A stretch of 64,000 nt of DNA from Opitutales bacterium. GTDB taxonomy: Bacteria; Verrucomicrobiota; Verrucomicrobiia; Opitutales; Intestinicryptomonadaceae. Under the pieces are notes generated by a model. That model was not told where the DNA came from, searched no databases, and saw nothing but the letters and a program-made list of their open reading frames with translations. The translations under genes and the position numbers were made by a program. Location of the stretch: NCBI GenBank assembly GCA_015061945.1, contig SUVP01000002.1:1-64000 (forward strand), given 5' to 3'. Of this stretch, positions 5,753 through 23,316 are shown one piece after another (the stretch's first letter is position 1; every line of letters starts with the position of its first letter).

Positions 5753-7414
5753 CTAATTCCAAATCTTTCTTTTGCACCCCCAAGCTATAAGCACTATAGC
5801 AAATATTGTTTGAATCATTAATGCAGTAGCACAAGTGTTTAAACTAGGGATATATGTTGTTGATTGCATTGTTTGCATATAAGCATCATAAATAGGCGAA
5901 TCTTTCATTGCCGCCATATACCCAGCCCATCCCCAGTATATAGTGATAAATGGGCGACAGCACCATTTTAGGATAATTGGGAGTGCAAGAACGATACCTG
6001 ATAATGGAAGTTGAAATCCTACCAAATAAATGGATAGCGTATTTGCTTTATCAGGAGACGATAAAATAGCACTAAAAGCTAAACATATTAATGTCATAGC
6101 AAGACAAACCAACGCAAGTATAGATGCTTGTTCTATAAAACTACCCGGAAACTTACAAATAAGTTTTACAAATCCACACATCCATATACCTTGAAATATT
6201 GCAATGGAACTTACGAATGTTATTTTTGACAAAACATATGCAACTGGTTTTAACCCTATTAGACGTTCCTTTTCATATAGGTTTCTTTCCGCAGCAATTT
6301 CCCTTGCAGAAGTATTTGCTCCCATTAGAGCTAATAAAATTACTTGAAATAGAATCAAGCCCGTTACCAAACTTGATGTATTTGCAGTTGTCATTTGTAC
6401 TTCTAAGGCACGCTTTATTTCTTCTATAGCACCTAAATTACGCTCTAATGCTAAAGTCTCAATTTGCGGTAAACCACCTATTGCAAAAATAACTACAATA
6501 AGAGGAAATCCAAATGTTATAAGCATAGTTAATGTAAGGTATGTTGTATCCCTAAAAAATAATTTATATCTGCGAGCTAAAAGAAATAGAAATTGGGAAA
6601 TTAAAGATGGTCTTGTTGTATTTTGAGTTTCTGAAAGAGTTACTTCTAATGATTTATCTGATTTGTAGTTTTCATATTTTTCACGCCAATATGAAATTTC
6701 ATATTCATTTAATTTATCGTAAAGGAGTAGGGCATTATCAATTTCAAAGTATGATAGGAGTGCAGGTAAATCACCTCTAAACACAATCTCTCCTTCAAAA
6801 ATAACTGTTATATTTTTAAAGTAATTTAATTTGGCTAAATTGTGTATAATACATATAAATGTCTTACCCTCGGTTTTGCAAAGATCGGACAATAAATCCA
6901 ATATTGCATTTTCAGACAAAGGGTCTAAACCTGAAGTCACTTCATCACAACACATAATCTGAGGATTATTTGCCAGTTCAATGCCGAGTCCCAATCTACG
7001 AAGTTGCCCACCAGATAAAGACGATACAAGCTTAGTTCTATGCTCCGATAACCCAATTACACCTAAGATGTGTTCTAATCGAGATTTTTTTATATGAGAA
7101 TCAGCTACGGAGATATCTAGTGCAGACTGTATAGACTCTTCCACAGTTAACATTGGGTAAGCACATGTAAACTGTGGTGCAAACCCAATTTGTCCAATTA
7201 AATCTTCGGTTTTTGAAATTTGTTTACCATTTAAGGATATTTTTCCTGTTGAAGGTATTATGCCTAACATAGCTTTTACAAGCGTTGTTTTGCCACACCC
7301 AGATGGACCTATGACAGCATTCATTTCGCCATCTTCAAAATCCACAGAGGCATCTGAAATTATATTAAAAGCACTATTTGGTGCAGGAACATATAGATTT
7401 TTACAGGTAAACAT
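5753..7414 (-). CDS. ABC half-transporter (ATPase fused to ABC-2 permease)
   Basis: A 553-aa fusion of an ABC ATPase (about residues 1-230) with an ABC-2-type membrane domain (about 285-553, six hydrophobic segments), the order seen in ABCG/White-type half-transporters. Motifs present: Walker A G-P-S-G-C-G-K-T (36-43), signature L-S-G-G-Q (133-137), Walker B I-M-C-C-D-E (153-158) and H-loop His191. It should work as a homodimer and export a hydrophobic or peptide substrate across the inner membrane. It stands alone, convergent with the gene at 3697 and 180 bp downstream of the ImmA-type gene. The substrate cannot be read from the sequence. It could export the small peptides of the nearby locus, but nothing links them except distance. 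Confidence 0.85.
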   Translation of the reverse strand: MFTCKNLYVPAPNSAFNIISDASVDFEDGEMNAVIGPSGCGKTTLVKAMLGIIPSTGKISLNGKQISKTEDLIGQIGFAPQFTCAYPMLTVEESIQSALDISVADSHIKKSRLEHILGVIGLSEHRTKLVSSLSGGQLRRLGLGIELANNPQIMCCDEVTSGLDPLSENAILDLLSDLCKTEGKTFICIIHNLAKLNYFKNITVIFEGEIVFRGDLPALLSYFEIDNALLLYDKLNEYEISYWREKYENYKSDKSLEVTLSETQNTTRPSLISQFLFLLARRYKLFFRDTTYLTLTMLITFGFPLIVVIFAIGGLPQIETLALERNLGAIEEIKRALEVQMTTANTSSLVTGLILFQVILLALMGANTSAREIAAERNLYEKERLIGLKPVAYVLSKITFVSSIAIFQGIWMCGFVKLICKFPGSFIEQASILALVCLAMTLICLAFSAILSSPDKANTLSIYLVGFQLPLSGIVLALPIILKWCCRPFITIYWGWAGYMAAMKDSPIYDAYMQTMQSTTYIPSLNTCATALMIQTIFAIVLIAWGCKRKIWN

Positions 7415-7593: not shown

Positions 7594-7598
7594 GGATT

Positions 7599-8288: not shown

Positions 8289-8291
8289 ATT

Positions 8292-8543: not shown

Positions 8544-8581
8544 ATTATTCGTTCTCCTTGTTTTTAATAGTATAGGAAGAA

Positions 8582-8611: not shown

Positions 8612-8617
8612 TACATT

Positions 8618-10516
8618 TTATTTTTCTAATATATTATTTGCAAGAGCGACAATTTCATCATTGGCAATCGTAGACATCGGATAAATTTTGCGAGCTTTTA
8701 AATATTCTAAGAGGGCAATCCAGTTATTTCCTTTGTTCTTTGCATCCTCAGCTAGTGCAATTGCTGCTGCAAATTTAGAAGCTTTTAGTGTTAAATCTGC
8801 ACGTAACCGATTTAGGTTAGCATCTTCAGGAAATTGACGGTATACTTTTTCTATAATTTCCCATGCGGCAAAGTTGTTGTTCAGACGAACAAGTTGTTCA
8901 GCCTGTTTCATAGAAGCTTCAATAACTTCCATACGTTTCATAATATCTAAAAATTTCTGATTTCTTGCTGGGTCCATAGCAAGTGCTGCTGCATATCTAA
9001 ATCTATCGTTAAATATGCCTCGAAAATCCTTCTGAGCCAACAATCTGTCAAAGTCAGTTGATGCAACGTCTTTTAAATCGACACGGCTGACCATAGACTT
9101 AAGAAATTCTTGGATTTTTGGGTTTGTAGGCCAAAATTCGACAGCTTCTTTTAATGCCGTTTCTACACCAGTTTGATTTTGGGTTTGTGCTGCAACTAAA
9201 GCCTTTTGCAACGCAAGATTACTTAATTGTTGTGATGTCTGAATAAATGCTTCTACTTGTCCAGAATCAAAGTCTTTTACATAGGATTTGATTTCTTTTA
9301 ATACCGTTTCTGCACGTTCTACATGTTTTACCTTAATTGCGTTTATTAGTTTTTCGGTATCACGCATGTAACGCATAATTTCACGCTTAGATTCAATAGG
9401 GAATGTTTTTATTGGTGCTAAGTGTTCTCCTATATAGAATGCTTCTAATAAACGTTGTGTAGCTGTATGCAATTCGCCTTTAGAAATGAGAAATTTAATA
9501 GCTTCTACGGCTCTATTGGTATCATTAATAGCTTCTCGACATAAAGCATCTATAGTTGCGGTTGTTAGTTTGATGTCAATACCACCAAAGACTTGACTTT
9601 TTAGGGAATCTAATCCTTCCAATTTAGCATCTTCTGCTGCAAACAAATAACGATAAAAATCGTTAGTTATCATAGCATGATAATATCTTCTTTGAACAAA
9701 GAATTGAACTATTAAACTCTGGAAATCTAATTTTTGATTTATTTTTGATGTTGCTTCGTAAGATTTATTCTCTTGTAGTTTTGCTTCTGTTTCCGCAAGT
9801 TTCTTTTTTATTGGATCTAACTCATACTCACGTGTCGGAGGTGGGGTTGCATCCTTACCACGCATAATCGTAATGAATTCCTGTCGATCAGCATTGGAGA
9901 TTGAACGAATCCGAGATTCTTTTACCGTGCGGTCTTGTTCTAAATCTACATTTTCTTGCAATAACTGACGTATTTTTTTAGATGTTTGCCAAAAATTAAT
10001 AACCTTATCAGCAATAGTTCTACAGAGTTGATCATCTAATGGATAATTTTCGGCATCGAATAGCATACGCCATGCCTCGAGTACTCTTATTGAATCGCTT
10101 CCGCCCCCTTTGCCAGCTAATCGCATACTTATATTTTCAAGAAGTTTATTGTAGGCTAAGTCCTCTTTAGATGTAGCTGCTGGTGAATTTAAATACTTTT
10201 CAAAACGTGCCTTTATAAGACGCTGTTGGGTATCATCGACTTTTTTACCTGCAAGATCGGTCAAGTTTGTTTGAGAATTTAATAAATTTAGTAACGCTGT
10301 ATTATCCGATTGAGTTATTCCACCCAAAGATAGTGGCATTGGACTTGGAGTGGTAGCTGGTTGTGTATTATTTATAACGGGGGAAGTTGTTGGTGTAGTT
10401 GTTGTGGTTGGCGCAGTTTGTGTTGTGCCTGTTTGTACTGGAGAAACTGGCGTTTCTTGCGAAAGAGCTATATTTAATGCTCCGAGTATAATTGCACTAA
10501 AATATAAGTTTTTCAT
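8618..10516 (-). CDS. Secreted helical-repeat (TPR-like) protein
   Basis: A 632-aa protein with a signal peptide (hydrophobic residues about 3-19, likely cut after A-L-S), then a 40-residue linker of T, P and Q, then an almost wholly helical body with repeated A-x-x-L-L and Y/F spacing typical of tetratricopeptide-like repeats, clearest in the last 120 residues. I place the start at the ATG at 10516, 1 bp after the stop of the preceding gene; the TTG at 10531 lies inside that gene. It is the last gene of a long minus-strand run. A periplasmic scaffold role fits. Its G/C content and balanced codons look more like the core genome than the peptide-linked genes upstream, so the 8.6-11.7 kb part may be older chromosome. 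Confidence 0.65.
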   Translation of the reverse strand: MKNLYFSAIILGALNIALSQETPVSPVQTGTTQTAPTTTTTPTTSPVINNTQPATTPSPMPLSLGGITQSDNTALLNLLNSQTNLTDLAGKKVDDTQQRLIKARFEKYLNSPAATSKEDLAYNKLLENISMRLAGKGGGSDSIRVLEAWRMLFDAENYPLDDQLCRTIADKVINFWQTSKKIRQLLQENVDLEQDRTVKESRIRSISNADRQEFITIMRGKDATPPPTREYELDPIKKKLAETEAKLQENKSYEATSKINQKLDFQSLIVQFFVQRRYYHAMITNDFYRYLFAAEDAKLEGLDSLKSQVFGGIDIKLTTATIDALCREAINDTNRAVEAIKFLISKGELHTATQRLLEAFYIGEHLAPIKTFPIESKREIMRYMRDTEKLINAIKVKHVERAETVLKEIKSYVKDFDSGQVEAFIQTSQQLSNLALQKALVAAQTQNQTGVETALKEAVEFWPTNPKIQEFLKSMVSRVDLKDVASTDFDRLLAQKDFRGIFNDRFRYAAALAMDPARNQKFLDIMKRMEVIEASMKQAEQLVRLNNNFAAWEIIEKVYRQFPEDANLNRLRADLTLKASKFAAAIALAEDAKNKGNNWIALLEYLKARKIYPMSTIANDEIVALANNILEK

Positions 10517-10517
10517 G

Positions 10518-10892
10518 TTATAGTTTTTCAAAAGCAGTTAATATAATTTTGCCATCGCCCTCAATACGAACATTGAGTTCATAACGTTGATTTGTACGTG
10601 GATTAAAGTCTGATATTGTAGGTAGTACCAATATCGGCAGAGGCGTTTGTGAATTTGTAGCATTAACCAATAAAATACGTCCTCGTGTATCCGAGTATGC
10701 TAATTGACTTTCTACAGATGCGGTAAGAGCATAATTATGGCCAGCAAATGCAGTTGGATTTTCTATATATCGTTCAATAGGAAATGTGTCGTCATTAGAT
10801 TTATTATGCTTAGAAAATACAAGCAATAATGCAATTAAACATGTAATAAGTGGGATTATGATTGCGATAAACATCGCTTTTTTGCGTTTCAT
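10518..10892 (-). CDS. Membrane-anchored 124-aa protein
   Basis: One N-terminal membrane segment (residues about 6-27) anchors a strand-rich domain of about 90 residues facing the periplasm, with alternating hydrophobic residues and a conserved-looking I-L-V...L-P-I-L-V...Y-E-L-N-V-R-I pattern that fits a small beta-barrel (OB-like) fold. I do not recognise the family. Its ATG overlaps the stop of the MauE-like gene (ATGA), so the two are translationally coupled. The neighbours suggest a role in periplasmic redox or assembly, for example as an accessory subunit of the MauE-like protein; this is inference. Confidence 0.6.
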   Translation of the reverse strand: MKRKKAMFIAIIIPLITCLIALLLVFSKHNKSNDDTFPIERYIENPTAFAGHNYALTASVESQLAYSDTRGRILLVNATNSQTPLPILVLPTISDFNPRTNQRYELNVRIEGDGKIILTAFEKL

Positions 10893-11326
10893 AAATGTAA
10901 TGTATCAGATTTTCTTTTTTCAAACAAGAGAATAATTATAGCTAAAACTATTAATAAAATATCTCGTAGAATAGTGGAAATATAATTACCGGTCACGTCA
11001 GAATTACCAAAACATCCACACGAGATATCTAGTCCTCTAAACCACGCTGAAAGTATTGCTAATATAAATATAAAAAGCAAGGTTGCCATTATGGTTGCAG
11101 AAGTTTTGGAATATCTAGGAATGAGAATTGTAATTGAAAGACATAGTTCAAAGGCTGGTAATAAATATGCGGAAATTTGAGATAATTCATCTGGTAAAAG
11201 TTGATAATTCCTAATATCCATAAAAAATAGATCTGGATGTAATATCTTTACATATGATGCATATGCGAATGTGCTTGCCAAAATTATACGGCATATCCAA
11301 GAACAAACTAACCTTATTTTTTCCAT
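10889..11326 (-). CDS. MauE/DoxX-family redox membrane protein
   Basis: A 145-aa membrane protein with four hydrophobic segments and the marks of the MauE/DoxX redox-associated family: K-I-L-H-P-D-L-F after segment one, N-Y-Q-L-L-P, L-P-A-F-E-L in segment two, and R-G-L-D-I-S-C-G-C-F-G between segments three and four. The C-G-C pair is the expected thiol centre. MauE proteins help form or rearrange disulphides in periplasmic partners. I use the ATG at 11326; a TTG at 11335 would add three residues. It overlaps the end of the rhodanese gene by 13 bp and the next gene by 4 bp. Cysteine-bearing secreted proteins encoded in the same run are likely partners. Confidence 0.85.
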   Translation of the reverse strand: MEKIRLVCSWICRIILASTFAYASYVKILHPDLFFMDIRNYQLLPDELSQISAYLLPAFELCLSITILIPRYSKTSATIMATLLFIFILAILSAWFRGLDISCGCFGNSDVTGNYISTILRDILLIVLAIIILLFEKRKSDTLHL

Positions 11327-11718
11327 TTTTTCCAATCATCTTTCAGAACATAGACATTCTTAATATTACATTCGTGCTTTAATTTTTCAGCAATATTTCT
11401 ACTGGAATTACAACTTCCCGAATTACAATATACCAATATTGTTGATTCTGGAGTCCAAATATCTAAGAAAGCACCTAATTGTTCATCAAATTTAGCTTCA
11501 GATAAATTAACAGCGTTTTTAATGTGTCCTTTATTAAAATCAGATATAGAACGGGCATCTACAATAATCAAATTCGTTGGCAAACGATTAACAGATTTTA
11601 AAGTAATTTCATCAGGTAATAATTCTGTATTGGGGCGATTAGCGTTTATAAAATAATTAGCTGTTGCAAATCCAATACTAATTATTGAAATTAATATAAA
11701 ATCTTTAATTATTTTCAT
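11314..11718 (-). CDS. Membrane-anchored rhodanese-like protein
   Basis: A 134-aa protein: one N-terminal membrane or signal segment (about residues 6-22) and a single rhodanese domain. Visible marks are I-I-V-D-A-R, G-H-I-x-x-A-V-N-L and the active-site loop C-N-S-G-S-C near residue 105, whose first cysteine is the catalytic position. Rhodaneses move sulfane sulfur or act as thiol carriers. Outside the inner membrane and next to a MauE protein, it probably handles periplasmic thiols. The ATG at 11718 overlaps the stop of the upstream ligase-like gene (ATGA); the earlier TTG at 11736 lies inside that gene. Confidence 0.85.
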   Translation of the reverse strand: MKIIKDFILISIISIGFATANYFINANRPNTELLPDEITLKSVNRLPTNLIIVDARSISDFNKGHIKNAVNLSEAKFDEQLGAFLDIWTPESTILVYCNSGSCNSSRNIAEKLKHECNIKNVYVLKDDWKKWKK

Positions 11719-13007
11719 TTTAGAAACCTTGTCCAATCAGGGATGTAATCTCCTACACCCTCCAAAATAATTAGTGAAACATTTTTATTAGAATTTGCAA
11801 GTATTTCCCATTCCTGTCTAATACGCCAATCGGTAAATCGTCCTACAATAGCTGTAATTTTCTTATTTCTATAATCTCCTATCGGAATTGGAGTATTTAG
11901 AAATAGCATCGATTTTGTATTAAATTTTGATATATCTATGGTAGATGAACCACAAACAATGATCTTAGAAAAGTTATCGTAAGTTGGATTTTCAGACACA
12001 AAAATACTTGTATTATGTTTTTTACTCCAATTAGATAATTCAGAACCATAATGTGTTCCCAATGTGCGTTCTACTGGGAATAAAAGAGCAATCTTAGCAG
12101 AATTTCCAACAATTACATCCCCATTCTTTTTTATGTCTAAGTTAGAAGTTTGAGTAAGTACTGCCGAAGTAATATACAGAATAGATAATACCAATAGAGA
12201 AATAAATACAATTCCCACATAAAAGTTTTTATTGTTTAATTTATGTCGTTGTCTGTATATCCCAAAAATCAATGCTATGGTTGGAACAATCCATAATGCC
12301 CAATAATTCATAACATTACTAAATGTTGCAGAAATTCCGAAGCAAATCCAAATTGAAAACAATGCGGAATCAAATGTATTTCGTATAGTAGGGAACAACA
12401 TTCCGAGAATAGCTATCCATCCCAAAATATACAATAGCCGAATCTCTATGCCATATTTACACATAACTTCCAAATGCGAATTTATCATAGATAAATAGAT
12501 TTCGGAATCATCAGGATTCTGATACCATTTCATATAAATTTCCACTGGAGACTTGTCTACTTTTACACCATTAGGTGCATCTGTTAACATTTTCAATCCA
12601 GATAAATATATATCGGCACGACAATTAGCCGACGAACTTTGTAGAGTAACCATATTCTCTACACGTTTGTTAAGATTACCTTTGGATGAGATAATATATG
12701 CAAATACAATCCACAATAGAACAGAACAAAATGTTATTCTATTAAATTTAAATCTTGAAAATATAATAAAGCTACAGCTTGCTACAAGTAGAGCAACGAG
12801 TGCACCACGTGATTCTGTTTTGGATAGGAAATAGAATAAAACTAACGATAACCCATATCCAAATATTTTTATAATTTTATTATTAATCTGAAATAGTGAA
12901 AACGTTGCAATAATTAGGCACGCAATAAATGCTGCGGTACGGTTTGCACTTGATATTCCGTATCCGAACCAGTCTAATCTTTCTGAAATTTGTGCTAATA
13001 ATATCAT
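11715..13007 (-). CDS. O-antigen ligase-like protein with soluble C-terminal domain
   Basis: A 430-aa protein with about nine hydrophobic segments in the first 280 residues, a T-E-S-R-G-A motif (residues about 66-71, the ligase S-R-G signature) and a large loop with P-D-D and N-S-H-L before a further segment. After the last membrane segment a soluble domain of about 140 residues follows, with strand-helix alternation that recalls the two hydrolases encoded just upstream but lacking a serine nucleophile elbow. Known relatives (WaaL, PglL, Wzy) transfer glycans outside the membrane. Both ends overlap neighbours by 4 bp (ATGA), so it is made together with the hydrolases and the rhodanese. A paralogue is cut by the left edge of the window. 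Confidence 0.75.
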   Translation of the reverse strand: MILLAQISERLDWFGYGISSANRTAAFIACLIIATFSLFQINNKIIKIFGYGLSLVLFYFLSKTESRGALVALLVASCSFIIFSRFKFNRITFCSVLLWIVFAYIISSKGNLNKRVENMVTLQSSSANCRADIYLSGLKMLTDAPNGVKVDKSPVEIYMKWYQNPDDSEIYLSMINSHLEVMCKYGIEIRLLYILGWIAILGMLFPTIRNTFDSALFSIWICFGISATFSNVMNYWALWIVPTIALIFGIYRQRHKLNNKNFYVGIVFISLLVLSILYITSAVLTQTSNLDIKKNGDVIVGNSAKIALLFPVERTLGTHYGSELSNWSKKHNTSIFVSENPTYDNFSKIIVCGSSTIDISKFNTKSMLFLNTPIPIGDYRNKKITAIVGRFTDWRIRQEWEILANSNKNVSLIILEGVGDYIPDWTRFLK

Positions 13008-14068
13008 TTTTCAATGACTACTCCCCATGCATCTGCAATCGGTTTTGTAGGTAACGCTACCATGAATTTTCTATGAGCAACTTTACTTACTGCCTCCTTT
13101 GTGGGATACGCAACTTGATTTAGGTAATCTCCTATATAAATTGGATACCGCATTAGATAAAACTTATCTATTGGGGGAGCTTCCCATTCTGGGTTACTAG
13201 GATCTGGTACAAATGTAATCAAATACTTAAAGAATTCCATAGAGAGTTTTTTTATTTGCGGATTTGTAGCATGTCCTAAATTCTCACCAGCTTTAAAAAT
13301 AACACAATATCCAAGATCTAACATTTTTTGATAAAACCGAGTGGCTGCTTGATACCCATATTCTAATTCTCCAGTTGTAACAAGCCACAAGATATTTTTA
13401 GCATTCGGAGTAGGGACGTCGTAGCTGGAATTTACATGAATATGAACTCCTGAAAAATACTGAGGTTTTCGCAATGCTATTCTATGAGCAATCTGCCCAC
13501 CACCACTAAATCCATATATCATAATAGAATTTCGGGGTAATGTATATTTATTCAAAACTCTACGGAATCCCTGTTCCCATTCTGATAGGCGATCATTAAA
13601 TATTTTATCGTATTGTTTAGCCATATCTTTTTGCATCTCATCAGAACTTGTTCCAATTACATATCCTCCAAAATTAGACCAAGTAATTACAGCCAAATTA
13701 TTTGCATCAGCAAAATCCAAATAATGCTGAAAATTGGATTCCCCTGATGTAAGAATCGCTTTTAAGGCATCTGGTTGTTTTTTCCATGTGCAAATTGCTA
13801 ATACACCACGAACACACGGAGTTTTAGTTTCCTTTGCCTTTTCATCTTTTGCTATTGTCCAAGAAGCTGGCATTCGTATTACATAAGTAATTTCCTCCAC
13901 CTTACTACGTTTAGTTGGATCTTTTCTTGCTGCTTGAGTTTTCTTATCTGTACGTTGCTCCAAAGTAAAAATACGCTTACTTTCAGGTAATAACGTCTCT
14001 GTCTCCTTTGCTTGCTGGGCAAATACAGCAGGAGATATGTATAAAATGGCTAGAAGAATACGAATCAT
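13004..14068 (-). CDS. Secreted alpha/beta hydrolase-like protein
   Basis: A 354-aa protein with an N-terminal signal peptide (cut probably after A-V-F-A). The alpha/beta-hydrolase marks are a nucleophile elbow G-F-S-G-G-G, the following strand-helix I-A-H-R-I-A, T-G-E-L-E-Y-G-Y where the acid would sit, and G-H-A-T-N as the catalytic histidine. The fold order fits esterases and prolyl-oligopeptidase-like enzymes. I use the ATG at 14068 that overlaps the upstream stop (ATGA). It pairs with a second such enzyme at 14065. An esterase, peptidase or acyl-transfer role on an envelope substrate is likely; the substrate is unknown. Confidence 0.75.
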   Translation of the reverse strand: MIRILLAILYISPAVFAQQAKETETLLPESKRIFTLEQRTDKKTQAARKDPTKRSKVEEITYVIRMPASWTIAKDEKAKETKTPCVRGVLAICTWKKQPDALKAILTSGESNFQHYLDFADANNLAVITWSNFGGYVIGTSSDEMQKDMAKQYDKIFNDRLSEWEQGFRRVLNKYTLPRNSIMIYGFSGGGQIAHRIALRKPQYFSGVHIHVNSSYDVPTPNAKNILWLVTTGELEYGYQAATRFYQKMLDLGYCVIFKAGENLGHATNPQIKKLSMEFFKYLITFVPDPSNPEWEAPPIDKFYLMRYPIYIGDYLNQVAYPTKEAVSKVAHRKFMVALPTKPIADAWGVVIEK

Positions 14069-14928
14069 GGTGCTTGAATCTTTTTCCAAGAGTTAAGTAA
14101 TTCTTTTGTTCTAAATGGACATTGTAATTCCGGTTGTTCTGATAGTAATAACAATTCATTATCCGAATTGGAAATATCTGCATAAATATCCTCTTTAGCT
14201 TTTTTATCCCCACGCCAAATAGCAAGCTCTTCATCGAAGAATTGTCGCACAAATTTTTCAAATTTAGCACTTCTATTATGCCCCGTATTTGAAATATTTA
14301 TCCATATCCAAGGACGCTTATCTTTTCTACCTTGATAATAGAATGAAAAGGATGGTTGCCATCTTAACCCATCTTGATCTCCACAAGCGACTATTCCACG
14401 GGCTTTCGTTAGTTTTGATCCTTTTTTCGGATAGTCCCAGAATTGTGCGGAATATGCGCACCAAGCGATAATTCTATCTGGGCACCAATCTACAAATCTA
14501 CTTACAAATTGTGCACCACCTGAAAAACCATATAAGATAATTGGCAAATCCTTTCCATAAACACGCTTTATTTCATCCAATAAAGCTTGTCCAGAACCTT
14601 GATCAGGCCAATAGTATCCTTTTCTATTTTCATACAAATCTTCAACACTAGAAGAGTAATTCAATGCAATCACTCCCAAGTTATTTTTCTTTGCAAAATC
14701 CATCCAAGGTGTCTCCTTAAGAAAGAATTTCCCATTGGTATTCATGCCAGGGGCGAGGACTAAGATTGCAGATTCATTCTGAGTAATGGATATTGTTGCA
14801 AAGTTGAAATAATTTATAGCATAAATAGGTCTTCCTATATAAACCCCCAAGAGCATGTACAAAACACAGGACTTACAAAAGTAGTTACAGATGTTAAATA
14901 TTATATTGTAGAATTTAGAATTATTCAT
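14065..14928 (-). CDS. Secreted alpha/beta hydrolase-like protein (second copy)
   Basis: A 287-aa protein with a long hydrophobic N-terminus (membrane anchor or signal, about residues 20-40). It has the hydrolase triad marks: G-F-S-G-G (nucleophile), G-D-Q-D-G (acid) and G-H-N-R-S (histidine), in that order and spacing. It is related to its neighbour at 13004 and probably arose by tandem duplication, though the two are far diverged. A 61-bp gap separates it from the DUF1573 gene upstream, so an internal promoter is possible. Its place beside the ligase-like gene suggests joint action on one surface substrate. Confidence 0.75.
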   Translation of the reverse strand: MNNSKFYNIIFNICNYFCKSCVLYMLLGVYIGRPIYAINYFNFATISITQNESAILVLAPGMNTNGKFFLKETPWMDFAKKNNLGVIALNYSSSVEDLYENRKGYYWPDQGSGQALLDEIKRVYGKDLPIILYGFSGGAQFVSRFVDWCPDRIIAWCAYSAQFWDYPKKGSKLTKARGIVACGDQDGLRWQPSFSFYYQGRKDKRPWIWINISNTGHNRSAKFEKFVRQFFDEELAIWRGDKKAKEDIYADISNSDNELLLLSEQPELQCPFRTKELLNSWKKIQAP

Positions 14929-14989
14929 TAGTGTATAATACCTTAACTATTTAAGTTCAATACAAATTATACGTTTTACAAATTATCAT

Positions 14990-15631
14990 TTATTTTATTA
15001 ATAGATAAACAAATAAAGTTTGGCATATCTTATTTTCTCCCTCTATTTCTATCTTTAAAATATCCATAGTTATATTTTCTGTGGCAACTGGAGTTATAAT
15101 AAAACTATTGTCATTTATTTGTTTAAAAGTAAATTTATTAGAGAAATTAGTTATTTTTTTTATAATAAATTGTAGGTTTTTCAATGGTTTCAGTATTATA
15201 ACTTTTCCATCTTTTGTGTCATTCTTTTTCCAGAATAAAATTTTGGGTGTAATTTCTATAATTTCGTCAGTTTTTAATGCAATATTTAATATAATAGACT
15301 TTTGTGCATAATAATCTGTATGAATCTCAATCTTTATATGAGCAGGTTGCTTATTAGGTTCAACATCGATGTATCCTTCTATTTTTCCTGATATATTTTT
15401 CTGAATTGTTTTTTTAGAATATTTAGTTACAGTACATTTGCACGACGTCCTTACATCGAGAATAGTGATTGGCTTCGAACCTATATTCTTATAATCAAAA
15501 GCAAATGGGATTGATTTCTTAGTTGGATCGATGTAGTACTCTTTGGAATATTGAACGAATTTTAATTGTGCATAGATATAACTCGATTGAAAAAATAGCA
15601 ATAAAAGCATGAATATAAGATTAGTTTTCAT
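14990..15631 (-). CDS. DUF1573-type secreted protein (minus arm)
   Basis: A 213-aa protein with a clear signal peptide (cut near S-Y-I-Y-A-Q) and an immunoglobulin-like DUF1573 domain: F-x-Y-K-N-I-G-S-K-P-I-T-I, then the T-S-C-K-C-T motif, then a proline/lysine turn and I-H-T-D-Y. DUF1573 domains sit in the periplasm or on the surface and often occur with thiol-redox proteins; the C-x-C pair is the family hallmark. The last third is a further strand-rich region ending in L-L-I-K. The paralogue at 23313 ends in L-F-I-K and keeps the S-C-G-C motif. It overlaps the gene at 15621 by 11 bp. Confidence 0.8.
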   Translation of the reverse strand: MKTNLIFMLLLLFFQSSYIYAQLKFVQYSKEYYIDPTKKSIPFAFDYKNIGSKPITILDVRTSCKCTVTKYSKKTIQKNISGKIEGYIDVEPNKQPAHIKIEIHTDYYAQKSIILNIALKTDEIIEITPKILFWKKNDTKDGKVIILKPLKNLQFIIKKITNFSNKFTFKQINDNSFIITPVATENITMDILKIEIEGENKICQTLFVYLLIK

Positions 15632-16604
15632 TGCGGAGTAATTTTATACAGACATACGATATATTAGAATTATCCATGGAGTTATAAATCTTTAACATAT
15701 TATCAACAATTTCAAATCTACTCATAAAGAAGGGGGAACCAGATGAATATTGTATTTTAGTATTATTAATATCAAATACTTCTGTTGATTCCATAGGAAC
15801 AATTCTCTTTGTGAGCCCACTCGGTGTTTCAGTTATAATAATAAATTTATGTATATTTAGTTTTGTTTTTTCGGATACAATTGTCAATTTATTCTTAATA
15901 TCCCAATTAGTTGCATGTAAAAATATTTGTTTCGCAGGATCATTTACATATGTAAAATAGGGGGAATTTTCAGAGTATTCTAACTCCTTATTTTCAGGAT
16001 AGAAGAAATGCCCAATTTCCGCATTATCGCTTGTTACATTTAAATCATTGTTAAATTGACCATATATTCTGTTTTCTTTAGCGGACTTTTCTAAATCATA
16101 TATCATTATAAAATTAGAATATATACTTGCGGGTGCAGCACGCGGGGAGAATTTTTTTAACAATAAAAATCTTCCAGATGGAGACTGCATAACAGGATTA
16201 TCTTCTGATAACGAAAAATGCAAAAGCACATCCTGTATAACAAAATTAGAGGCATCTACAATTACTGAAATTATTCCGTTTTGCGAATGTCCTGAAAAAA
16301 CTATTTTATTTTTATAGATAACATGTGATAATAATGATTGAAATTTTGAAGGTAATTGTATAATGACCTTTCCAGTATTATCAACTATGAAACGTCGTAG
16401 TTTATTAGGACAGGTATCACAAGGAATCTCCTTTATCCCAAATTGAGAGTTTTGTAACGTGTTTAAAGGTATCTCAGTCGGTATTTTACGCACTATACGC
16501 TCTACAAAAACTTTAAGCTCTGCATCATTTGGTGCAACAAATTCCGCATATGTGTAAAACGCAATGCAAACAATAGAAATAAAAATAGCAAGTATATAAT
16601 ACAT
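15621..16604 (-). CDS. Secreted strand-rich protein, possibly beta-propeller
   Basis: A 327-aa protein with an N-terminal membrane or signal segment (residues 2-18) and otherwise repeating short strands with G/S/D turns and periodic aromatic residues (for example S-P-S-G-R-F-L-L-L, F-S-G-H-S-Q-N-G). This pattern fits a six- or seven-bladed beta-propeller but no blade motif is clean enough to prove it. One C-D-T-C pair lies near residue 64. No paralogue is seen in the plus arm, where two different proteins fill this place. It overlaps the DUF1573 gene by 11 bp and follows the Cys-rich gene by 9 bp, so it is in the same transcript. Confidence 0.6.
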   Translation of the reverse strand: MYYILAIFISIVCIAFYTYAEFVAPNDAELKVFVERIVRKIPTEIPLNTLQNSQFGIKEIPCDTCPNKLRRFIVDNTGKVIIQLPSKFQSLLSHVIYKNKIVFSGHSQNGIISVIVDASNFVIQDVLLHFSLSEDNPVMQSPSGRFLLLKKFSPRAAPASIYSNFIMIYDLEKSAKENRIYGQFNNDLNVTSDNAEIGHFFYPENKELEYSENSPYFTYVNDPAKQIFLHATNWDIKNKLTIVSEKTKLNIHKFIIITETPSGLTKRIVPMESTEVFDINNTKIQYSSGSPFFMSRFEIVDNMLKIYNSMDNSNISYVCIKLLRNEN

Positions 16605-16613
16605 AGATATGTC

Positions 16614-17546
16614 TTAGTTATCAATTCGATAAGTGACCTGATGCTCCGACGTAAGGTCTGTAAGCCCAGAACAAGTTCCATCCTGAACCCAATGATCTAG
16701 TTGTTTTATCTTAACCCCGCCTCCGTGATCTAAAACAGTCTTTAGTCCGACGGATTCTATGTATACAACATCTTTACAAGACAAATCGGGATGATCTGGA
16801 TTAATAGCAACAGTATTTGTATTTATTGATGAGTTGCAAGCTGTCTTTATTTCTCCTTGCCTAAAGGTATTATTAGATTTCGCATTTGGATATTTTGATA
16901 GCAACTCAGGTTTTTTTATGCAATAGTACTCACGAAGGATAGAACCATAAGCATTGCTAATTCCACTACCATTTTCAAGAACTTCATTATAGAATTTTTC
17001 AGAAAGTGAGCCCGTATTACCTTCACATTCACTATTAGTAATGTATACAGATACTTCAGTACTTGAACTACATGTGTTGTTGTTTTCTTTTGGCGTCGTA
17101 TAGCGCGTATGTCTATATGCACCTAATCTCTTAAATTTGTAAGTATAAAAATCTGTAGCATATTCGCCCCATTTTATTTGTATTCCAGAGTATGTAGTAC
17201 TGTCTGTGGTATATTTCCGCCAACCTGACAGTATGCTAGCCCCTCCTGTGCGATTTGCGAGAGTTTTTATGAGAACAAGAGACCCATCTAATTTTACTAA
17301 AAAAACAGATAAGGTCGCACATGCCGAATTAGGTGTTAAATTTATATGAATAGCATCATCTGGTAAGGATACCTTAGAAATCTTAGCGGATAAGCATGTA
17401 TCTAACCTACCATCGCCATCCGAATCGAATTCACATTCTATTTCTGTTTTTTGTCCATCGTTATTACAATCGCAACATGGCACATTGCTTGCAATTAGCA
17501 AATTGTACGATATAAAGTAAAGAAGTAACAGTATCAAATATTTCAT
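16614..17546 (-). CDS. Secreted Cys-rich protein with calcium-binding-like repeat
   Basis: A 310-aa protein with a signal peptide (cut after L-I-A-S or so), then a short cysteine-rich module P-C-C-D-C-N-N-D-G...C-E-F-D-S-D-G-D-G-R-L-D-T-C that contains a D-x-D-x-D-G calcium-loop pattern like type-3 thrombospondin or dockerin repeats. The rest is a soluble strand-rich region with six more cysteines in the middle and C-terminus. The ATG at 17546 sits 1 bp after the stop of the YD-repeat-like gene. It holds the same place as the Cys-rich protein of the plus arm (21284), though sequence similarity is limited to the Cys-rich start. Extracellular location is likely. Confidence 0.65.
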   Translation of the reverse strand: MKYLILLLLYFISYNLLIASNVPCCDCNNDGQKTEIECEFDSDGDGRLDTCLSAKISKVSLPDDAIHINLTPNSACATLSVFLVKLDGSLVLIKTLANRTGGASILSGWRKYTTDSTTYSGIQIKWGEYATDFYTYKFKRLGAYRHTRYTTPKENNNTCSSSTEVSVYITNSECEGNTGSLSEKFYNEVLENGSGISNAYGSILREYYCIKKPELLSKYPNAKSNNTFRQGEIKTACNSSINTNTVAINPDHPDLSCKDVVYIESVGLKTVLDHGGGVKIKQLDHWVQDGTCSGLTDLTSEHQVTYRIDN

Positions 17547-17547
17547 G

Positions 17548-19110
17548 CTATTTTTGTTTATATAATTGTTGTAATAACTCAAGTTTTTTTTGAAAAGAAT
17601 CTATAATATTTCCATTTTTATTGTACTTCCAATAATCAATCAAATTATGTTCTCTATATTTGTAAACATCGTAACCTATATTATGGTACACATAATGGGA
17701 TCTTGTATTAGCTATAAAATCTTCAAATATACTCATACGCCTCTCTGAATTATAAACTACCTTTTCTACCATAATTGTATTTTTGAATTTTACATATGAA
17801 CCATATGTGTCTAAGTATTTCCATTCCGAAATATTATTATTATTATCTATTTCTCGTATAATATTACCATCTTCATTATACATACGAAGCAATTTAATAT
17901 GCCATAGCTTATGATTCGCTACTTTCTGTTCTATTTTTCGAATTTTCATGGAAGAATTACCTTTAGATGCAATATATGATACACGAGTTCCTTCTCCAGT
18001 GTTCGGGTTTTGTGTAAATTTTACAGCATTACTTGAATCGTATTCCCATATTTCAGCATATTTACAGTTAGGACGTTTGTATGAAATACAGGAAACTTGT
18101 CTAAGTATATCATTATTAGGTAATCTTATGGCATTATCAAAATCGGGATTCAACTTATCTACAAAAGGATTATATATAGAATATTGTCCACCACTATCCG
18201 ATATGATCATTCCAGTTATGGCATCCCATCTTAAACAACCAGAATCCCTATTGTTTTTTATTTTTTCGAGAATATTAGATGGTATATTTTTAATTTCACA
18301 CTCTTGTTGATTCGCAAACAAACATACACGTGAACAGTTAGCTTCCGAATGATATGTATATTTTTCTACTGAACCATCTGTATATTTTATGAGACTAATT
18401 GTTTTGTATTTATTTTTTAGATTTTCTCCTTTTGAATTAAATGTATTACAAGGGACATACGAAATGGATATTTTTTTAGAATTCTTTATTTGTATATCCA
18501 TTAATAACTTTTCTGTATTATAAACAAAACTCATTACTTCTTCACGTTTTGTAATATTATATATCAATATAGGCATTTTATTTTGATAGTAAATTCTAAA
18601 AACATCTGCCTCAAATCCATTACAAAATTCAATGAGTTTATCATTTTTAAATTTAAAATATTTTTTAATATCAGATACGTGATATATATATACATGATCC
18701 TTGAGTATATTTAACTTCCATAAGCCAGTAGTATTCAAAACATATGTTTCTTTATTGCCCCGGGTGGTTTTTCTTAACTTCTCAAATGTATATGTACCAT
18801 GATTCGGACTTTTCCAAAGATAACGGTTTTTAGAAGTTTTAACTATGTGCGTATCAAAGAATGGAATACTCCAATATAATCCTAAATAATTTGGAGATAT
18901 ATTTGGATTAGAAGAGAACTTAAAGAACAAATCCGCAGTTTCTCCATCCCCTAATGACATTTTATAAAACATGCAATCCATCCTCGCATACCCTTGGCTA
19001 TCGGAATTACCAACAGGGATCTGTTGAACCGAACGAGTAAACTGAGCATACATAATCGTCATGGCCCCTAAGGTTAACATAATTGCCATGCAAATGGATT
19101 TATATGTCAT
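17548..19110 (-). CDS. Secreted YD-repeat-like protein (minus arm)
   Basis: A 520-aa protein with a signal peptide (cut after M-Y-A-Q) and strand-rich sequence with YD-type motifs such as Y-N-E-D-G-N-I-I-R-E and Y-T-D-G-S-V-E-K-Y. It is a clear paralogue of the protein at 19597: both start Q-I-P-V/I-G-N-x-D, share F-Y-K-M-x-L-G, Y-W-S-I-P-F-F and A-V-K-x-T-Q-N-P-x-T-G. Rhs/YD proteins form shells that carry toxins, but this one is short, lacks the Rhs core end motif and has no toxin domain, so it is more likely a structural or peptide-binding surface protein. It follows the 55-aa peptide gene by 17 bp. Confidence 0.75.
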   Translation of the reverse strand: MTYKSICMAIMLTLGAMTIMYAQFTRSVQQIPVGNSDSQGYARMDCMFYKMSLGDGETADLFFKFSSNPNISPNYLGLYWSIPFFDTHIVKTSKNRYLWKSPNHGTYTFEKLRKTTRGNKETYVLNTTGLWKLNILKDHVYIYHVSDIKKYFKFKNDKLIEFCNGFEADVFRIYYQNKMPILIYNITKREEVMSFVYNTEKLLMDIQIKNSKKISISYVPCNTFNSKGENLKNKYKTISLIKYTDGSVEKYTYHSEANCSRVCLFANQQECEIKNIPSNILEKIKNNRDSGCLRWDAITGMIISDSGGQYSIYNPFVDKLNPDFDNAIRLPNNDILRQVSCISYKRPNCKYAEIWEYDSSNAVKFTQNPNTGEGTRVSYIASKGNSSMKIRKIEQKVANHKLWHIKLLRMYNEDGNIIREIDNNNNISEWKYLDTYGSYVKFKNTIMVEKVVYNSERRMSIFEDFIANTRSHYVYHNIGYDVYKYREHNLIDYWKYNKNGNIIDSFQKKLELLQQLYKQK

Positions 19111-19127: not shown

Positions 19128-19295
19128 CTAATCTTTAAGTTTTATTGGCATATTATCACTCTCGGATTCTCCACCACAAGGAACATCCCCGGTTTCGCAC
19201 GGCTCACACTCATTACCACTTTCATTTGTTGCAAATCCTAATGATGCAACAGTAACAATAACAAAAACTACCAATACTTTAATAATTAATTTCAT
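19128..19295 (-). CDS. Secreted 55-aa Cys peptide (minus arm)
   Basis: Small gene, too short for routine calling. The product is 55 aa: a signal peptide of about 22 residues ending G-F-A, then a mature part of about 33 residues with E-C-E-P-C and a further C seven residues on, acidic residues and S-D-N-M. It matches the plus-strand peptide at 19393 in length, cysteine positions (C30, C33, C40 against C31, C34, C40), the E-C-E-x-C core and D-N-M near the end. Such a paired match in divergent genes strongly supports both as real. It heads the long minus-strand transcript. Role unknown: signal, toxin, adhesin monomer or redox substrate are all possible. Confidence 0.75.
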   Translation of the reverse strand: MKLIIKVLVVFVIVTVASLGFATNESGNECEPCETGDVPCGGESESDNMPIKLKD

Positions 19296-19392: not shown

Positions 19393-19560
19393 ATGATTAG
19401 GATACTTTTTAAACTGATTTTTGTGGTTGCTTTGGTAATACAAGCATCCATTATATGGGCTACTGATTCTTCACAAACAGAATGTGAAGATTGTAATGTG
19501 ACGGATACATGTTCGCAGTCAGATTCTGCGGATAACATGTCATCTGAATTAGGCGAATAA
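19393..19560 (+). CDS. Secreted 55-aa Cys peptide (plus arm)
   Basis: Small gene missed by length cut-offs. The 55-aa product has a signal peptide (positively charged start, hydrophobic run, cut near I-W-A-T) and a 32-residue acidic mature part with E-C-E-D-C, a third cysteine six residues on, and A-D-N-M before the end. GGTGAG lies 3-8 bp before the ATG. It is the mirror partner of the minus-strand peptide at 19128. Three cysteines leave one free after an internal disulphide, which could form a dimer or link to a partner such as the DUF1573 or MauE proteins. It is followed by the YD-repeat-like gene after 36 bp. Confidence 0.75.
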   Translation: MIRILFKLIFVVALVIQASIIWATDSSQTECEDCNVTDTCSQSDSADNMSSELGE

Positions 19561-19596: not shown

Positions 19597-21330
19597 ATGA
19601 AGTTACAATTAATAACTGTCTTTCTGTTATTTGTAGCTCATGTTTCAGTGGCACAGGTATCTCACTCATGGACGCAAATCCCAATAGGGAACGCAGACAA
19701 GAATGGTTTTGCACGTTTAGATAAGTTGTTTTATAAAATGCCACTCGGGAACAATAAGGACGCAGATTTTTTTCTGATGTTTTCAACGGATCCCCGTATA
19801 AATATGGGGTGCACTGGGATGTACTGGTCTATCCCATTTTTCAATTCACGAGTGGTACGTTTATCTGAATCGAAATATGAGTGGCAAAGTCCTAATCTTG
19901 GAATATATATTTTCAATAAAACAAAAAAACTTGGGAAAGGAGGTGGCACTACATATTTGTTGAATACAAATGGAAAGTGGAAACTAAATATGTTACGCGA
20001 TGGTACCATTCACATTGAGGATACTCAAACAGTGGATAGGTATTATATTTATAGAAAAGGCAGATTAGTAACTTTTCGTGATGGTCCTTTATCAGACATA
20101 TTTAAAATTTTCTATAACGGAGATGTTTTATTTCCACATTCTGTATATAACCAAACACAAACTAAAGAAGAATTGCAATTTATTTACAACAAATCTGGTT
20201 TATTGTTTAAAATTTCCCTACCTAAAGTCCATAAATTTGTTTATATAAATTACGAAGATTGCGGTACCCATTTGAGTAATCCACATGTTAGTTCTAAAGA
20301 AAAGTTAAAATCCATTTCATCAATAATGTTTATAGATGGGACAAAAGAGGAATACAGATATACAGCTGAAAAATTAAAGAAAAATAGAACCATTTTAACT
20401 AAAAATGGGGATATTAAGGAAAAAGTGTTGGTTAATAGATTGGAATCCAAAGTAAATAATACAACAAAAGGGTTCATAGAATGGGATGCAGAAACTGGTA
20501 TAATTATATCAGATGCAGGCGGTGACTATTCTATCAGAAATCCGTTACTTGATAAAATAAATACAGAATACAATGCTCCTATTTTTAAAACAGACAGATT
20601 ATACAATAATAGAACGAAAGAATCTAAGATATCATATAAAAAACCAGAAAATAAATATCCTGAAATATGGGAATATAATTCGCGTAATGCTGTAAAAGTA
20701 ACACAAAATCCACATACAGGCACCCAAACAAGAACATCATATATTGGAATTTCAGGCAACGCATCTATGAAAATTAGAAAAATAGAAATAAAAGCTCGTT
20801 CTGATAAGAATTGGCAGTTATCTGTTATGAATACGTATGATGCACTGGGAAGAAAAATTAGAAGTATTTCACCCAATGGCATCAAAGAATATAAATTCAT
20901 AGGGAATGATAAATTTATTTATTTCAATTCCGCTCTAATTCGTTCAGAGCATGTGGATAAAAAGAGTAAAAAATTAACTGTAAAACTTTACAAAGACGCA
21001 GATACAATACTTGAATATATATATTCAGAACATCCAAATTATTCACTTATACATCGCAAAAATAATAATTTTGTATATTACAAGGAGTATGCGTATAGGT
21101 GGGATGAAAGTCGCATTAAATATAAAGAATTGAGTGACCATAGCAAATATATTTATCAATATATAAATGGTTATAGAGAAACATTAAAAATATTTCCAGA
21201 TGGAACTAAAGAATTAACAAAATATAATCCCTCTATAAATCAATACATAAATATAAAAGATAAGAATTTAATTGATAAATGGTATGAAAAAATTACTAAC
21301 AGCAATACTATTAACAACAATATTCACTAA
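19597..21330 (+). CDS. Secreted YD-repeat-like protein (plus arm)
   Basis: A 577-aa protein with a signal peptide (cut after S-V-A-Q), strand-rich throughout, with YD-like motifs such as Y-D-A-L-G-R-K-I-R-S and F-P-D-G-T-K-E-L-T-K-Y. It is the paralogue of 17548-19110, with the extra length at the C-terminus. A strong AGGAGT lies just before the ATG. No toxin domain or Rhs core end motif is present. Its stop lies 47 bp inside the next gene, so translation is coupled. A surface shell or receptor that binds the small peptide of the same arm is the simplest guess; it is not demonstrated. Confidence 0.75.
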   Translation: MKLQLITVFLLFVAHVSVAQVSHSWTQIPIGNADKNGFARLDKLFYKMPLGNNKDADFFLMFSTDPRINMGCTGMYWSIPFFNSRVVRLSESKYEWQSPNLGIYIFNKTKKLGKGGGTTYLLNTNGKWKLNMLRDGTIHIEDTQTVDRYYIYRKGRLVTFRDGPLSDIFKIFYNGDVLFPHSVYNQTQTKEELQFIYNKSGLLFKISLPKVHKFVYINYEDCGTHLSNPHVSSKEKLKSISSIMFIDGTKEEYRYTAEKLKKNRTILTKNGDIKEKVLVNRLESKVNNTTKGFIEWDAETGIIISDAGGDYSIRNPLLDKINTEYNAPIFKTDRLYNNRTKESKISYKKPENKYPEIWEYNSRNAVKVTQNPHTGTQTRTSYIGISGNASMKIRKIEIKARSDKNWQLSVMNTYDALGRKIRSISPNGIKEYKFIGNDKFIYFNSALIRSEHVDKKSKKLTVKLYKDADTILEYIYSEHPNYSLIHRKNNNFVYYKEYAYRWDESRIKYKELSDHSKYIYQYINGYRETLKIFPDGTKELTKYNPSINQYINIKDKNLIDKWYEKITNSNTINNNIH

Positions 21331-22024
21331 TCTTCTATTTTCGGAAGAAAAATGTTCTTGCAAGACGCATGGGCGCCCATACAATCCCGAAAACGAGTGT
21401 TGTGGTGAAACAGAATTTACTCCTAAAGAAGTTGACTATACATTTAGTCCCAATTTTGATGCGATAAAGAGTTCATTTGACTGTTTCAATGCTGTACAAA
21501 GAAGTTTATGCAATACATCTGGAACAATTTATTTTTCACCGGCAATATCCATTTCGTGTAATGGGAAATATACGTGTTGTGAGAAAAAAGATGTTATTTT
21601 ATTAGGAAATATAAGTGCCAGCGGGGGACTTCATGTTTCAATACCTGCCATAAGATCAGGTAATCTTCCTATTCCTGGAACTTGGGGGATTGTATATTTT
21701 AGTACTACGATAGGATTTGCGGCACAATTAAGCTTCTCAGGAACAATGCAGTCTACATGTGCCAGGCCTCAAGGTGTTTTTGCACTAACTGGTGAGATTT
21801 CTGCTACAGGGGGAGGTTCCTTAAAAGCAATAAGCGACAACATAGCATCTCTATCAGGAAGTATTTCTTCTTCTGGCAACTGTGCGATAACATATACATT
21901 AAAATCAGGAGAAAAAAGCGGAACTTGGAATGTGAAACAGTGTTCTATTTCCAAAGTAGAGGCCGCTTATACCGTAATTGTTGCAGGCTTTCAAGCATCT
22001 AAAGGAACAATAAATTTATTGTAA
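21284..22024 (+). CDS. Secreted Cys-rich protein (plus arm)
   Basis: A 246-aa protein with a signal peptide (cut after L-L-F-S), then a cysteine-rich region (C-S-C...C-C...C...C...C...C-C, about 11 cysteines in the first 90 residues) and a G/S-rich strand-forming C-terminal half that looks like extracellular beta structure. I chose the ATG at 21284; the ATG at 21272 adds four residues without a better ribosome site. It overlaps the end of the YD-repeat-like gene by 47 bp. It occupies the place of the Cys-rich protein at 16614 in the other arm, but direct similarity is weak. Disulphide formation by the MauE/rhodanese proteins is plausible. Confidence 0.65.
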   Translation: MKKLLTAILLTTIFTNLLFSEEKCSCKTHGRPYNPENECCGETEFTPKEVDYTFSPNFDAIKSSFDCFNAVQRSLCNTSGTIYFSPAISISCNGKYTCCEKKDVILLGNISASGGLHVSIPAIRSGNLPIPGTWGIVYFSTTIGFAAQLSFSGTMQSTCARPQGVFALTGEISATGGGSLKAISDNIASLSGSISSSGNCAITYTLKSGEKSGTWNVKQCSISKVEAAYTVIVAGFQASKGTINLL

Positions 22025-22025
22025 A

Positions 22026-22760
22026 ATGAAGTATTTTTTCATAATAATATTATTAACTTTGGCAAATTCATTAATATCTGCGGAATTATTTTATGTTACG
22101 CCAATGACTGTAGAATTTCCCGCTGTGAAATTAACCATCAAAGGCCCTATCAAAAAAGATGTTCGAAAAGAAGTAACCTGCTTAGGGAATTTTTCCGATA
22201 AATTAACACTATTAACTCCGAGAAAAATCTCACATTATTCAACCCCATTTACTGTATTGGAGCATTTATTGTATATATTTCAAAACAGTAACAATTTTAA
22301 TGAAGTATACGGTTTGATTTCTCCAAGCTTAACAGGAGACGCTCGTGAGTTTTATACAAATCAGATAAAAATGCCAGAGTTTAAAGCGTATGTACGTAAA
22401 ATTAAAACATATAATGTTTATGGTTATTTTTTGGATAAAAATACCTGTGTAATTTTTTATGCATTATCAACAAAAGAGGGACATACTTGTTCTCAATTTA
22501 CGTTAGTCTTTGAAAATGGTAGATGGTATTTAGGTGATCAAATGTATAACATGTCTAGAGATCTTAGAGCACTAGCATCATTTTTGTCATTTTTTCCAAA
22601 AGATATACGGACAGATTTAAAAATAACAGTGCCACCAACTTTAGAAAATTTAGCATTATTGGCAACTGATTTAGATACAATTTCTTTTTACAATAAATTG
22701 GCTGTCTTTTATGGGTTAACACCATTTCAAAAATTCATAGAAAAAAGATTAAATGAGTAA
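22026..22760 (+). CDS. Secreted protein of a locus-specific family, 244 aa
   Basis: A 244-aa protein with a signal peptide (cut after L-I-S-A). The N-terminal part has Y-V-T-P-M-T-V-E-F-P, G-P-I-K-K and L-G-N-F-S-D-K-L; the same blocks occur in the decayed gene at 34114-34404. The middle has a T-C-V-I-F-Y and an E-N-G-R-W-Y-L-G pattern like SnoaL/NTF2-type pockets. The C-terminus F-Y-G-L-T-P-F-Q-K-F-I-E-K-R-L resembles the end of the next gene, so the two are probably tandem relatives. The stop overlaps the next ATG by 8 bp. No known family recognised. Confidence 0.65.
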   Translation: MKYFFIIILLTLANSLISAELFYVTPMTVEFPAVKLTIKGPIKKDVRKEVTCLGNFSDKLTLLTPRKISHYSTPFTVLEHLLYIFQNSNNFNEVYGLISPSLTGDAREFYTNQIKMPEFKAYVRKIKTYNVYGYFLDKNTCVIFYALSTKEGHTCSQFTLVFENGRWYLGDQMYNMSRDLRALASFLSFFPKDIRTDLKITVPPTLENLALLATDLDTISFYNKLAVFYGLTPFQKFIEKRLNE

Positions 22761-23316
22761 ATTACCCATATATATAATATTTACAATTACATTTAATTCT
22801 TTATTTGGAAATATATCTCCTTGGGTTATTTCATATCCCCAAGGAGATTATACGAGTATAAATAAAGATTCTTTTAATATAGATTTAATATCCAAACCGA
22901 TACTAGCGTGTTATAAGCCCGACGGAATTTCTGATAGTTTTTTGAAAATATTAAACCTCCCCCAAAAAGATATTTTTAAAGTTAATAAGTTAGTTTTTTG
23001 TGGAATCGACTCATTTGGGAATTGTGTTATTATATGTAATACAGGAGTAAAATATACAGCTGTAGTATATGCAAATGCTGAAAATGGCTGGGTACAGGTA
23101 GATTCCTTATGTGATAGTTTTTTACTAGGAATGTTAAACTACATGAACCAATTTACATCATTTGGATATACGCCTATAATTGAGTTTTCTAAATTAGAAT
23201 TTACGGACATAGCTCGTATAGATAAAAAAGCAATATTTACATATAAAACATTAGAAAACCGTATGGGGCTTCCCAAATTCGAAGAAATTGTAAAAAAACA
23301 GTTATTACAGAGATGA
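22753..23316 (+). CDS. Secreted protein related to the preceding gene, 187 aa
   Basis: A 187-aa protein with a hydrophobic N-terminus (signal peptide, cut near L-F-G-N), a cysteine-bearing middle and the C-terminal block M-G-L-P-K-F-E-E-I-V-K-K-Q-L, matching the end of the protein encoded upstream (22026). It may be a shortened divergent duplicate. It overlaps its neighbours by 8 and 4 bp, so it is in the same transcript and translationally coupled. No function can be read from it. Confidence 0.65.
   Translation: MSKLPIYIIFTITFNSLFGNISPWVISYPQGDYTSINKDSFNIDLISKPILACYKPDGISDSFLKILNLPQKDIFKVNKLVFCGIDSFGNCVIICNTGVKYTAVVYANAENGWVQVDSLCDSFLLGMLNYMNQFTSFGYTPIIEFSKLEFTDIARIDKKAIFTYKTLENRMGLPKFEEIVKKQLLQR

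Follow-up and report, generated by a model that had tools for sequence, protein, structure and literature searches.

The window, i.e. the whole stretch of 64,000 nucleotides that was analysed, carries a nearly gapless minus-strand run of genes encoding a DUF1573 protein, HYD1, HYD2, WZY, a rhodanese, MauE, p124, and TPR637, with an ABC transporter gene downstream. The module spans at least positions 5753-19295 on the minus strand and extends beyond the region 10518-15631 that was first described. A divergent partner operon on the plus strand (19393-23945) comprises the genes for pepB, RHSb, p250, p244, p187, and a second DUF1573 protein. The individual features are:

pepA, 19128..19295 (-): secreted peptide of 55 aa; 3 Cys; D-N-M-P motif at the C-terminus; similar peptides precede Rhs-like genes elsewhere
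RHSa, 17548..19110 (-): Rhs/YD-like secreted protein, 520 aa; profile A8 matches YD-repeat PDB chains, but a Pfam search gave no hit
p322, 16614..17582 (-): secreted protein with 12 Cys, variable cargo
p327, 15621..16604 (-): exported protein, no family assigned
DUF1573 protein, 14990..15631 (-): 43.8 bits; motif T-S-C-K-C
HYD1, 14065..14928 (-): alpha/beta-hydrolase; motif GFSGGA
HYD2, 13004..14068 (-): alpha/beta-hydrolase; motif GFSGGGQ; ATG start at 14068, listed TTG start at 14089
WZY, 11715..13007 (-): N-terminally truncated WaaL-like protein (8 membrane helices) with an alpha/beta-hydrolase-fold domain at residues 286-430
rhodanese, 11314..11718 (-): membrane-anchored; 67.9 bits; motif Y-C-N-S-G-S-C; listed TTG start at 11736
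MauE, 10889..11326 (-): 102 bits at a cut-off of 27; motif S-C-G-C-F-G; listed TTG start at 11335
p124, 10518..10892 (-): 124 aa; one membrane helix and an OB fold
TPR637, 8618..10516 (-): exported helical protein of 637 aa with a weak TPR_14 match; ATG start; listed TTG start at 10531
p229, 7599-8288 (-): 229 aa with a HELAH motif, may be a zinc peptidase; its gene separates those of TPR637 and ABC553
ABC553, 5753..7414 (-): half transporter of ATPase and ABC-2 permease
pepB, 19393..19560 (+): secreted peptide of 55 aa with 3 Cys and a D-N-M-S motif; first in the divergent operon
RHSb, 19597..21330 (+): Rhs/YD-like secreted protein, 577 aa
p250, 21272..22024 (+): secreted protein with 12 Cys, variable cargo
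p244, 22026..22760 (+): exported protein, no family assigned
p187, 22753..23316 (+): exported protein, no family assigned
second DUF1573 protein, 23313..23945 (+): motif S-C-G-C

With ATG starts, the reading frames overlap by 4 bases at HYD1/HYD2, HYD2/WZY, WZY/rhodanese, and MauE/p124, and by 13 bases at rhodanese/MauE. A single base separates p124 from TPR637, and the only wider gap is formed by 61 bases between the DUF1573 gene and HYD1. The one tight run of genes described in the original prediction is confirmed by this arrangement, and its gene assignments, i.e. the rhodanese, MauE, and DUF1573 proteins with their cysteine motifs, the two hydrolases, and the Wzy_C protein, were all recovered at the positions given there. 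The minus-strand set also includes the small genes p83 and p229, none of which was seen in relatives. Elsewhere in the window, a second Wzy_C gene (23-1117, +; 38.8 bits) lies at the contig start and is likely cut by the contig end, and an AAA-ATPase_like/PDDEXK_9 protein is encoded at 3697-5538 (+). Beside the module, the region 24644-33559 encodes a SIR2_2 protein, an AAA_21 and DUF4276 pair, a ParA-like protein, and two tandem phage-type integrases, resembling a mobile or defence-like stretch.

The order DUF1573-HYD1-HYD2-WZY-rhodanese-MauE-p124-TPR637 was found in L040, from a different genus of the family, and in L042, from a different family, and the same order is visible from HYD1 onward in L041. 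In L043, L136, and L137, an Rhs-like gene is inserted between HYD1 and HYD2. In more distant members of the class (L161, L165, L168), p124-TPR637-ABC is followed by HYD1-HYD2-WZY-rhodanese-MauE and then by an Rhs-like gene. This recurrence beyond the genus and the family excludes a chance grouping of the module genes. The survey yielded 46 distinct loci holding WZY, nearly all of them from Verrucomicrobiota, with HYD1 present in 44, HYD2 in 40, and an Rhs-like gene in 30 of the 46. The rhodanese and MauE occur as a pair in 21 of these loci, MauE occurs alone in 2, and the rhodanese alone in none. Since the loci were picked via matches to HYD1, HYD2, WZY, or TPR637 and many contigs are cut, these counts describe composition and are not unbiased rates. 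The rhodanese and MauE travel together, and they do so with the hydrolases and WZY; as had been proposed, the sulfur-handling proteins belong to one recurring unit with the hydrolases and the ligase-like protein. The module is conserved across families of Verrucomicrobiota, with named contigs from Akkermansia, Cerasicoccus, Coraliomargarita, Chthoniobacterales, and Verrucomicrobiales records. A few module-bearing contigs are labelled otherwise (by record label Kiritimatiellae, Gastranaerophilales, and Blastochloris MAGs), and the remaining matches outside Verrucomicrobiota cover only short stretches of generic hydrolase sequence. Two further observations concern the same genus: one genome (L046, 7749-8150) carries a HYD1 copy that is broken by stops and apparently decayed, adjoining two Rhs-like genes, and others (L047-L050) carry a more distant set of two hydrolases and Wzy without rhodanese or MauE.

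The 124-aa protein had been grouped with MauE. This assignment was not borne out, because TPR637 and p124 form a unit that stands alone without MauE: all 16 stand-alone TPR637 loci examined lack rhodanese, MauE, HYD, and WZY genes, and p124 lies beside or near TPR637 in 15 of the 16. This unit is often accompanied by an ABC transporter and is widespread without the rest of the module, and the genome from which the window derives has a second TPR637-p124 copy on contig C14. In loci with the full order, ABC553 adjoins p124, TPR637, or HYD1. A stand-alone cluster of rhodanese, MauE, p124, and TPR protein, named in the original prediction as the counter-case to its proposal, did not occur among the 16 stand-alone TPR637 loci.

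The cysteine motifs of the thiol proteins are invariant in the homologues aligned, i.e. C104 and C109 of the rhodanese (C-N-S-G-S-C; 17/17), the C-G-C of MauE (15/15), and the CxC of DUF1573 (14/14 module homologues). A DUF1573 protein with a U-G-C motif is among predicted selenoproteins (PMC9312934). A role in the Mau methylamine pathway was considered and rejected, as no other mau genes were recognised near the module. The predicted catalytic triads of both hydrolases are intact. Ser136-Asp186-His217 of HYD1 is invariant (21/21), and the putative triad Ser195, Glu243, and His273 of HYD2 (numbered from the TTG start at 14089) aligns with it. The two proteins are homologous (hhalign probability 97.8); a HYD2 profile had no match among PDB sequences.

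WZY matches Wzy_C with 36.8 bits, above the curated cut-off of 31.7, and Wzy_C matches were obtained for 21 of 21 WZY homologues (E 0.01), in which R67, R115, R130, and H178 are invariant. A similar Arg/His pattern is known from PglS, where three Arg and a His were assigned by comparison with WaaL (PMC12800693). The AlphaFold model of WZY (pLDDT 88.3) has 8 membrane helices vs. about 12 for full WaaL. Its residues 3-258 align with residues 133-407 of WaaL 7tpg (Z 13.1, 227 residues, rmsd 3.9), and its residues 286-430 align with esterases, feruloyl-esterase-like folds among them (Z about 10-11). WZY is therefore a WaaL core minus the first helices plus a hydrolase-fold domain. The earlier description as a Wzy/WaaL-like protein holds for the WaaL fold and the Wzy_C match, but not in the sense of a full O-antigen ligase, since about five N-terminal helices (~130 residues) are missing compared to WaaL. 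Owing to the tail domain, Foldseek with WZY alone favoured esterases. Judging from the positive charges in the loops, the tail would be located in the periplasm; no conserved nucleophile Ser was seen in it in the alignment of WZY homologues. Searches with a WZY profile gave no match to PDB sequences and no sequence relation to the HYD1 profile, Wzy_C_2 was matched in none of the 21 WZY members (E 0.01), and a viral library gave weak hydrolase matches at most.

A cysteine-bearing substrate, as postulated from the window, has candidates in the short secreted peptides encoded upstream of Rhs-like genes. In a strict scan, a secreted Cys peptide of ~50 aa was located directly upstream of 17 of 32 Rhs-like genes vs. 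3 of 564 other genes (Fisher p 1.8e-21, an optimistic value since related loci are not independent). Among 25 curated peptides in this position, 24 contain Cys, and the last residue is E or D in 18; Cys makes up 5.5% of the mature part vs. 1.3% in the background. The peptide tails are acidic, Pro-, Ser-, or Gly-rich and Cys-bearing, and no conserved hydroxyl acceptor residue was found among them. Many peptides have a single Cys, and an internal disulfide can therefore not form in those. The D-S-M in the peptide tail was considered as a Bacteroides-type O-glycosylation sequon; this candidate was rejected because the middle residue can also be N, C, or Y. HYD2, WZY, and rhodanese also occur together in some loci where no peptide could be located. 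The rhodanese-MauE pair is missing from about half of the loci, yet several peptides from such loci (L190, L200, L220) still contain Cys. Profile A8 of the Rhs-like proteins matches YD-repeat PDB chains with an E value of 2e-6, and no Pfam Rhs core or toxin domain was found in these proteins from the window or its relatives. A possible surface location of the Rhs-like proteins would agree with the detection of YD-repeat proteins in the A. muciniphila outer-membrane proteome (PMC4960237). Cys-rich secreted proteins are present in many loci.

The composition and order of the genes, their conservation, the intact predicted active-site residues, and the presence of candidate exported substrates are all established at the level of the sequences. 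Our best, still tentative reading, to which we assign a probability of about 0.42, is that the module works in the envelope and serves the export and maturation of three kinds of product: secreted peptides bearing Cys, secreted proteins rich in Cys, and a short Rhs-like protein. Weighing against this reading are the peptides with a single Cys, the lack of a conserved hydroxyl acceptor, the loci in which no peptide was located, the Cys peptides of loci without the rhodanese-MauE pair, and the lack of recognised glycosyltransferases; the mauE homologues of candidate RiPP clusters (PMC7794033) and the predicted DUF1573 selenoprotein (PMC9312934) serve as precedents. According to this proposal, the substrate cysteine would be processed on the outer side of the inner membrane by the rhodanese (C104, C109), MauE (CGC), and DUF1573 (CxC), whether through oxidation, isomerisation, or loading with a persulfide. 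WZY would transfer a polyprenyl-diphosphate-linked glycan onto the peptide or the Rhs-like protein. As no glycosyltransferases were recognised in the recurrent set, the glycan donor would come from elsewhere. HYD1 and HYD2 may trim or release the product by ester, amide, or thioester cleavage, and ABC553, p124 with its OB fold, and TPR637 would handle export or trafficking as a unit that is found on its own as well. The cysteine redox action, the glycan transfer, and the trimming are suggested by protein families and conserved residues. It is also conceivable, if unlikely, that the locus encodes a new system for protein conjugation. In it, a WaaL-type transferase of half the usual size, fused to a hydrolase-fold domain, and the two active hydrolases would link a secreted peptide, via a cysteine activated as persulfide or thiol by rhodanese, MauE, and DUF1573, to a surface glycan, a lipid, or the Rhs-like protein.

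A RiPP-like pathway is a rather unlikely alternative, in which the Cys peptides and Cys-rich proteins would be matured into a secreted natural product or a peptide used in signalling. Their cysteines would be modified by the thiol enzymes, or elsewhere by radical SAM/SPASM enzymes, followed by cleavage through a C39-like peptidase or the hydrolases and export by the ABC transporter. The short precursor genes near candidate modification enzymes, i.e. the Cys peptides before Rhs-like genes and the redox genes in the module, are in line with this. So is the presence of mauE homologues in candidate RiPP clusters whose precursors are rich in Cys (PMC7794033). Loci L158 (Akkermansia muciniphila CSUN-56, 4572-7098) and L164 (13331-16138) encode a radical SAM/SPASM enzyme next to a protein that has 32-34 Cys, arranged in C-x-n-C repeats, and that in L164 starts with a Tat-like signal; a similar radical SAM set is present in L205, and L171 contains a radical SAM gene. 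C39-like proteins are encoded in L136 (above the cut-off) and in L040 and L044 (just below). In L040, the region 12548-14579 encodes the C39-like protein, which is periplasmic, together with the Cys-rich secreted protein p159, in which the stretch ELSVEESYNLLGG after the signal peptide looks by eye like a double-glycine leader. However, neither radical SAM nor lanthionine enzymes nor any further kind of RiPP tailoring enzyme were found at the window locus, and the peptide signal is of the Sec type, with no conserved division into leader and core. None of the four radical SAM loci has the rhodanese-MauE pair, but this exclusion concerns 4 loci only, with a one-sided p of about 0.07 (hand calculation).

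It is quite improbable that the module serves in surface polysaccharide or LPS modification, with WZY ligating or polymerising a lipid-borne glycan, the hydrolases acting on glycans as deacylases or esterases, and both the peptides and the Rhs-like protein being passengers. The WaaL fold, the consistent Wzy_C match (21/21), and the feruloyl-esterase-like folds found with the WZY tail are compatible with such a function, but no glycosyltransferase, flippase, or sugar-nucleotide gene was recognised in the recurrent set, the neighbours of which are partly annotated; moreover, the Rhs-like genes and peptides recur with the module, and the first helices of WaaL are missing. An Rhs-type contact-competition locus with the other genes serving maturation and export is very unlikely, since despite the YD-repeat similarity, the variable genes after the Rhs-like gene, the patchy distribution, and the nearby integrases, the proteins comprise only about 410-600 aa, neither an Rhs core nor a toxin domain was matched in Pfam, and nothing resembling an immunity pair was recognised.

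The component families of the proposed envelope maturation module are known; in the papers searched, no description was found of the way they are combined, of a truncated ligase bearing a hydrolase-fold tail, or of the pairing with peptides. In the literature searched, which covered few subscription journals, there was no description of the module, no work joining MauE, rhodanese, disulfide, and periplasm, and none on Verrucomicrobia with Rhs, radical SAM, and cysteine-rich proteins. Proteins of thiol chemistry are joined in the module with a truncated ligase and with very small secreted peptides that carry cysteine. Its ordered gene set is kept in many Verrucomicrobiota, among them gut Akkermansia and the marine Coraliomargarita and Cerasicoccus (cultured isolates). 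Because cultured hosts exist, the module is testable, and if confirmed, it would represent a new route by which bacteria assemble or decorate peptides on their surface, in a phylum that is important for gut health.

Several known systems share parts of this module. The Rhs-like proteins have a YD-repeat segment at profile positions 410-499 in common with Rhs cores, TcB, and Tse15, but are short, gave no match to a toxin or Rhs-core family, and are preceded by a Cys peptide. HYD1 shares its nucleophile-elbow region with poly(aspartic acid) hydrolase-1 (6ve6) and with alpha/beta-hydrolases of the PHA-depolymerase type, the match being weak (26 bits over about 65 residues). The MauE-like domain of the BT_3928 family (NCBIfam NF045576) aligns with MauE from the window, although with 44.1 bits vs. 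a cut-off of 250 and over the MauE part only. Methylamine dehydrogenase maturation by MauE/MauD and the RiPP clusters with mauE (PMC7794033) likewise combine MauE with a Cys-bearing exported substrate candidate; in contrast to methylamine dehydrogenase maturation, no mau structural genes or MauD were seen here, and the fixed partner of MauE is the rhodanese. WZY has the Wzy_C domain, the membrane fold, the SRG arginine, loop arginines, and a catalytic-type histidine in common with WaaL (7tpg) and PglS/PglL, but it lacks about the first five helices and a Wzy_C_2 match and carries an alpha/beta-hydrolase-fold tail. A further difference is that WZY is encoded together with thiol proteins and peptides rather than with glycan genes.
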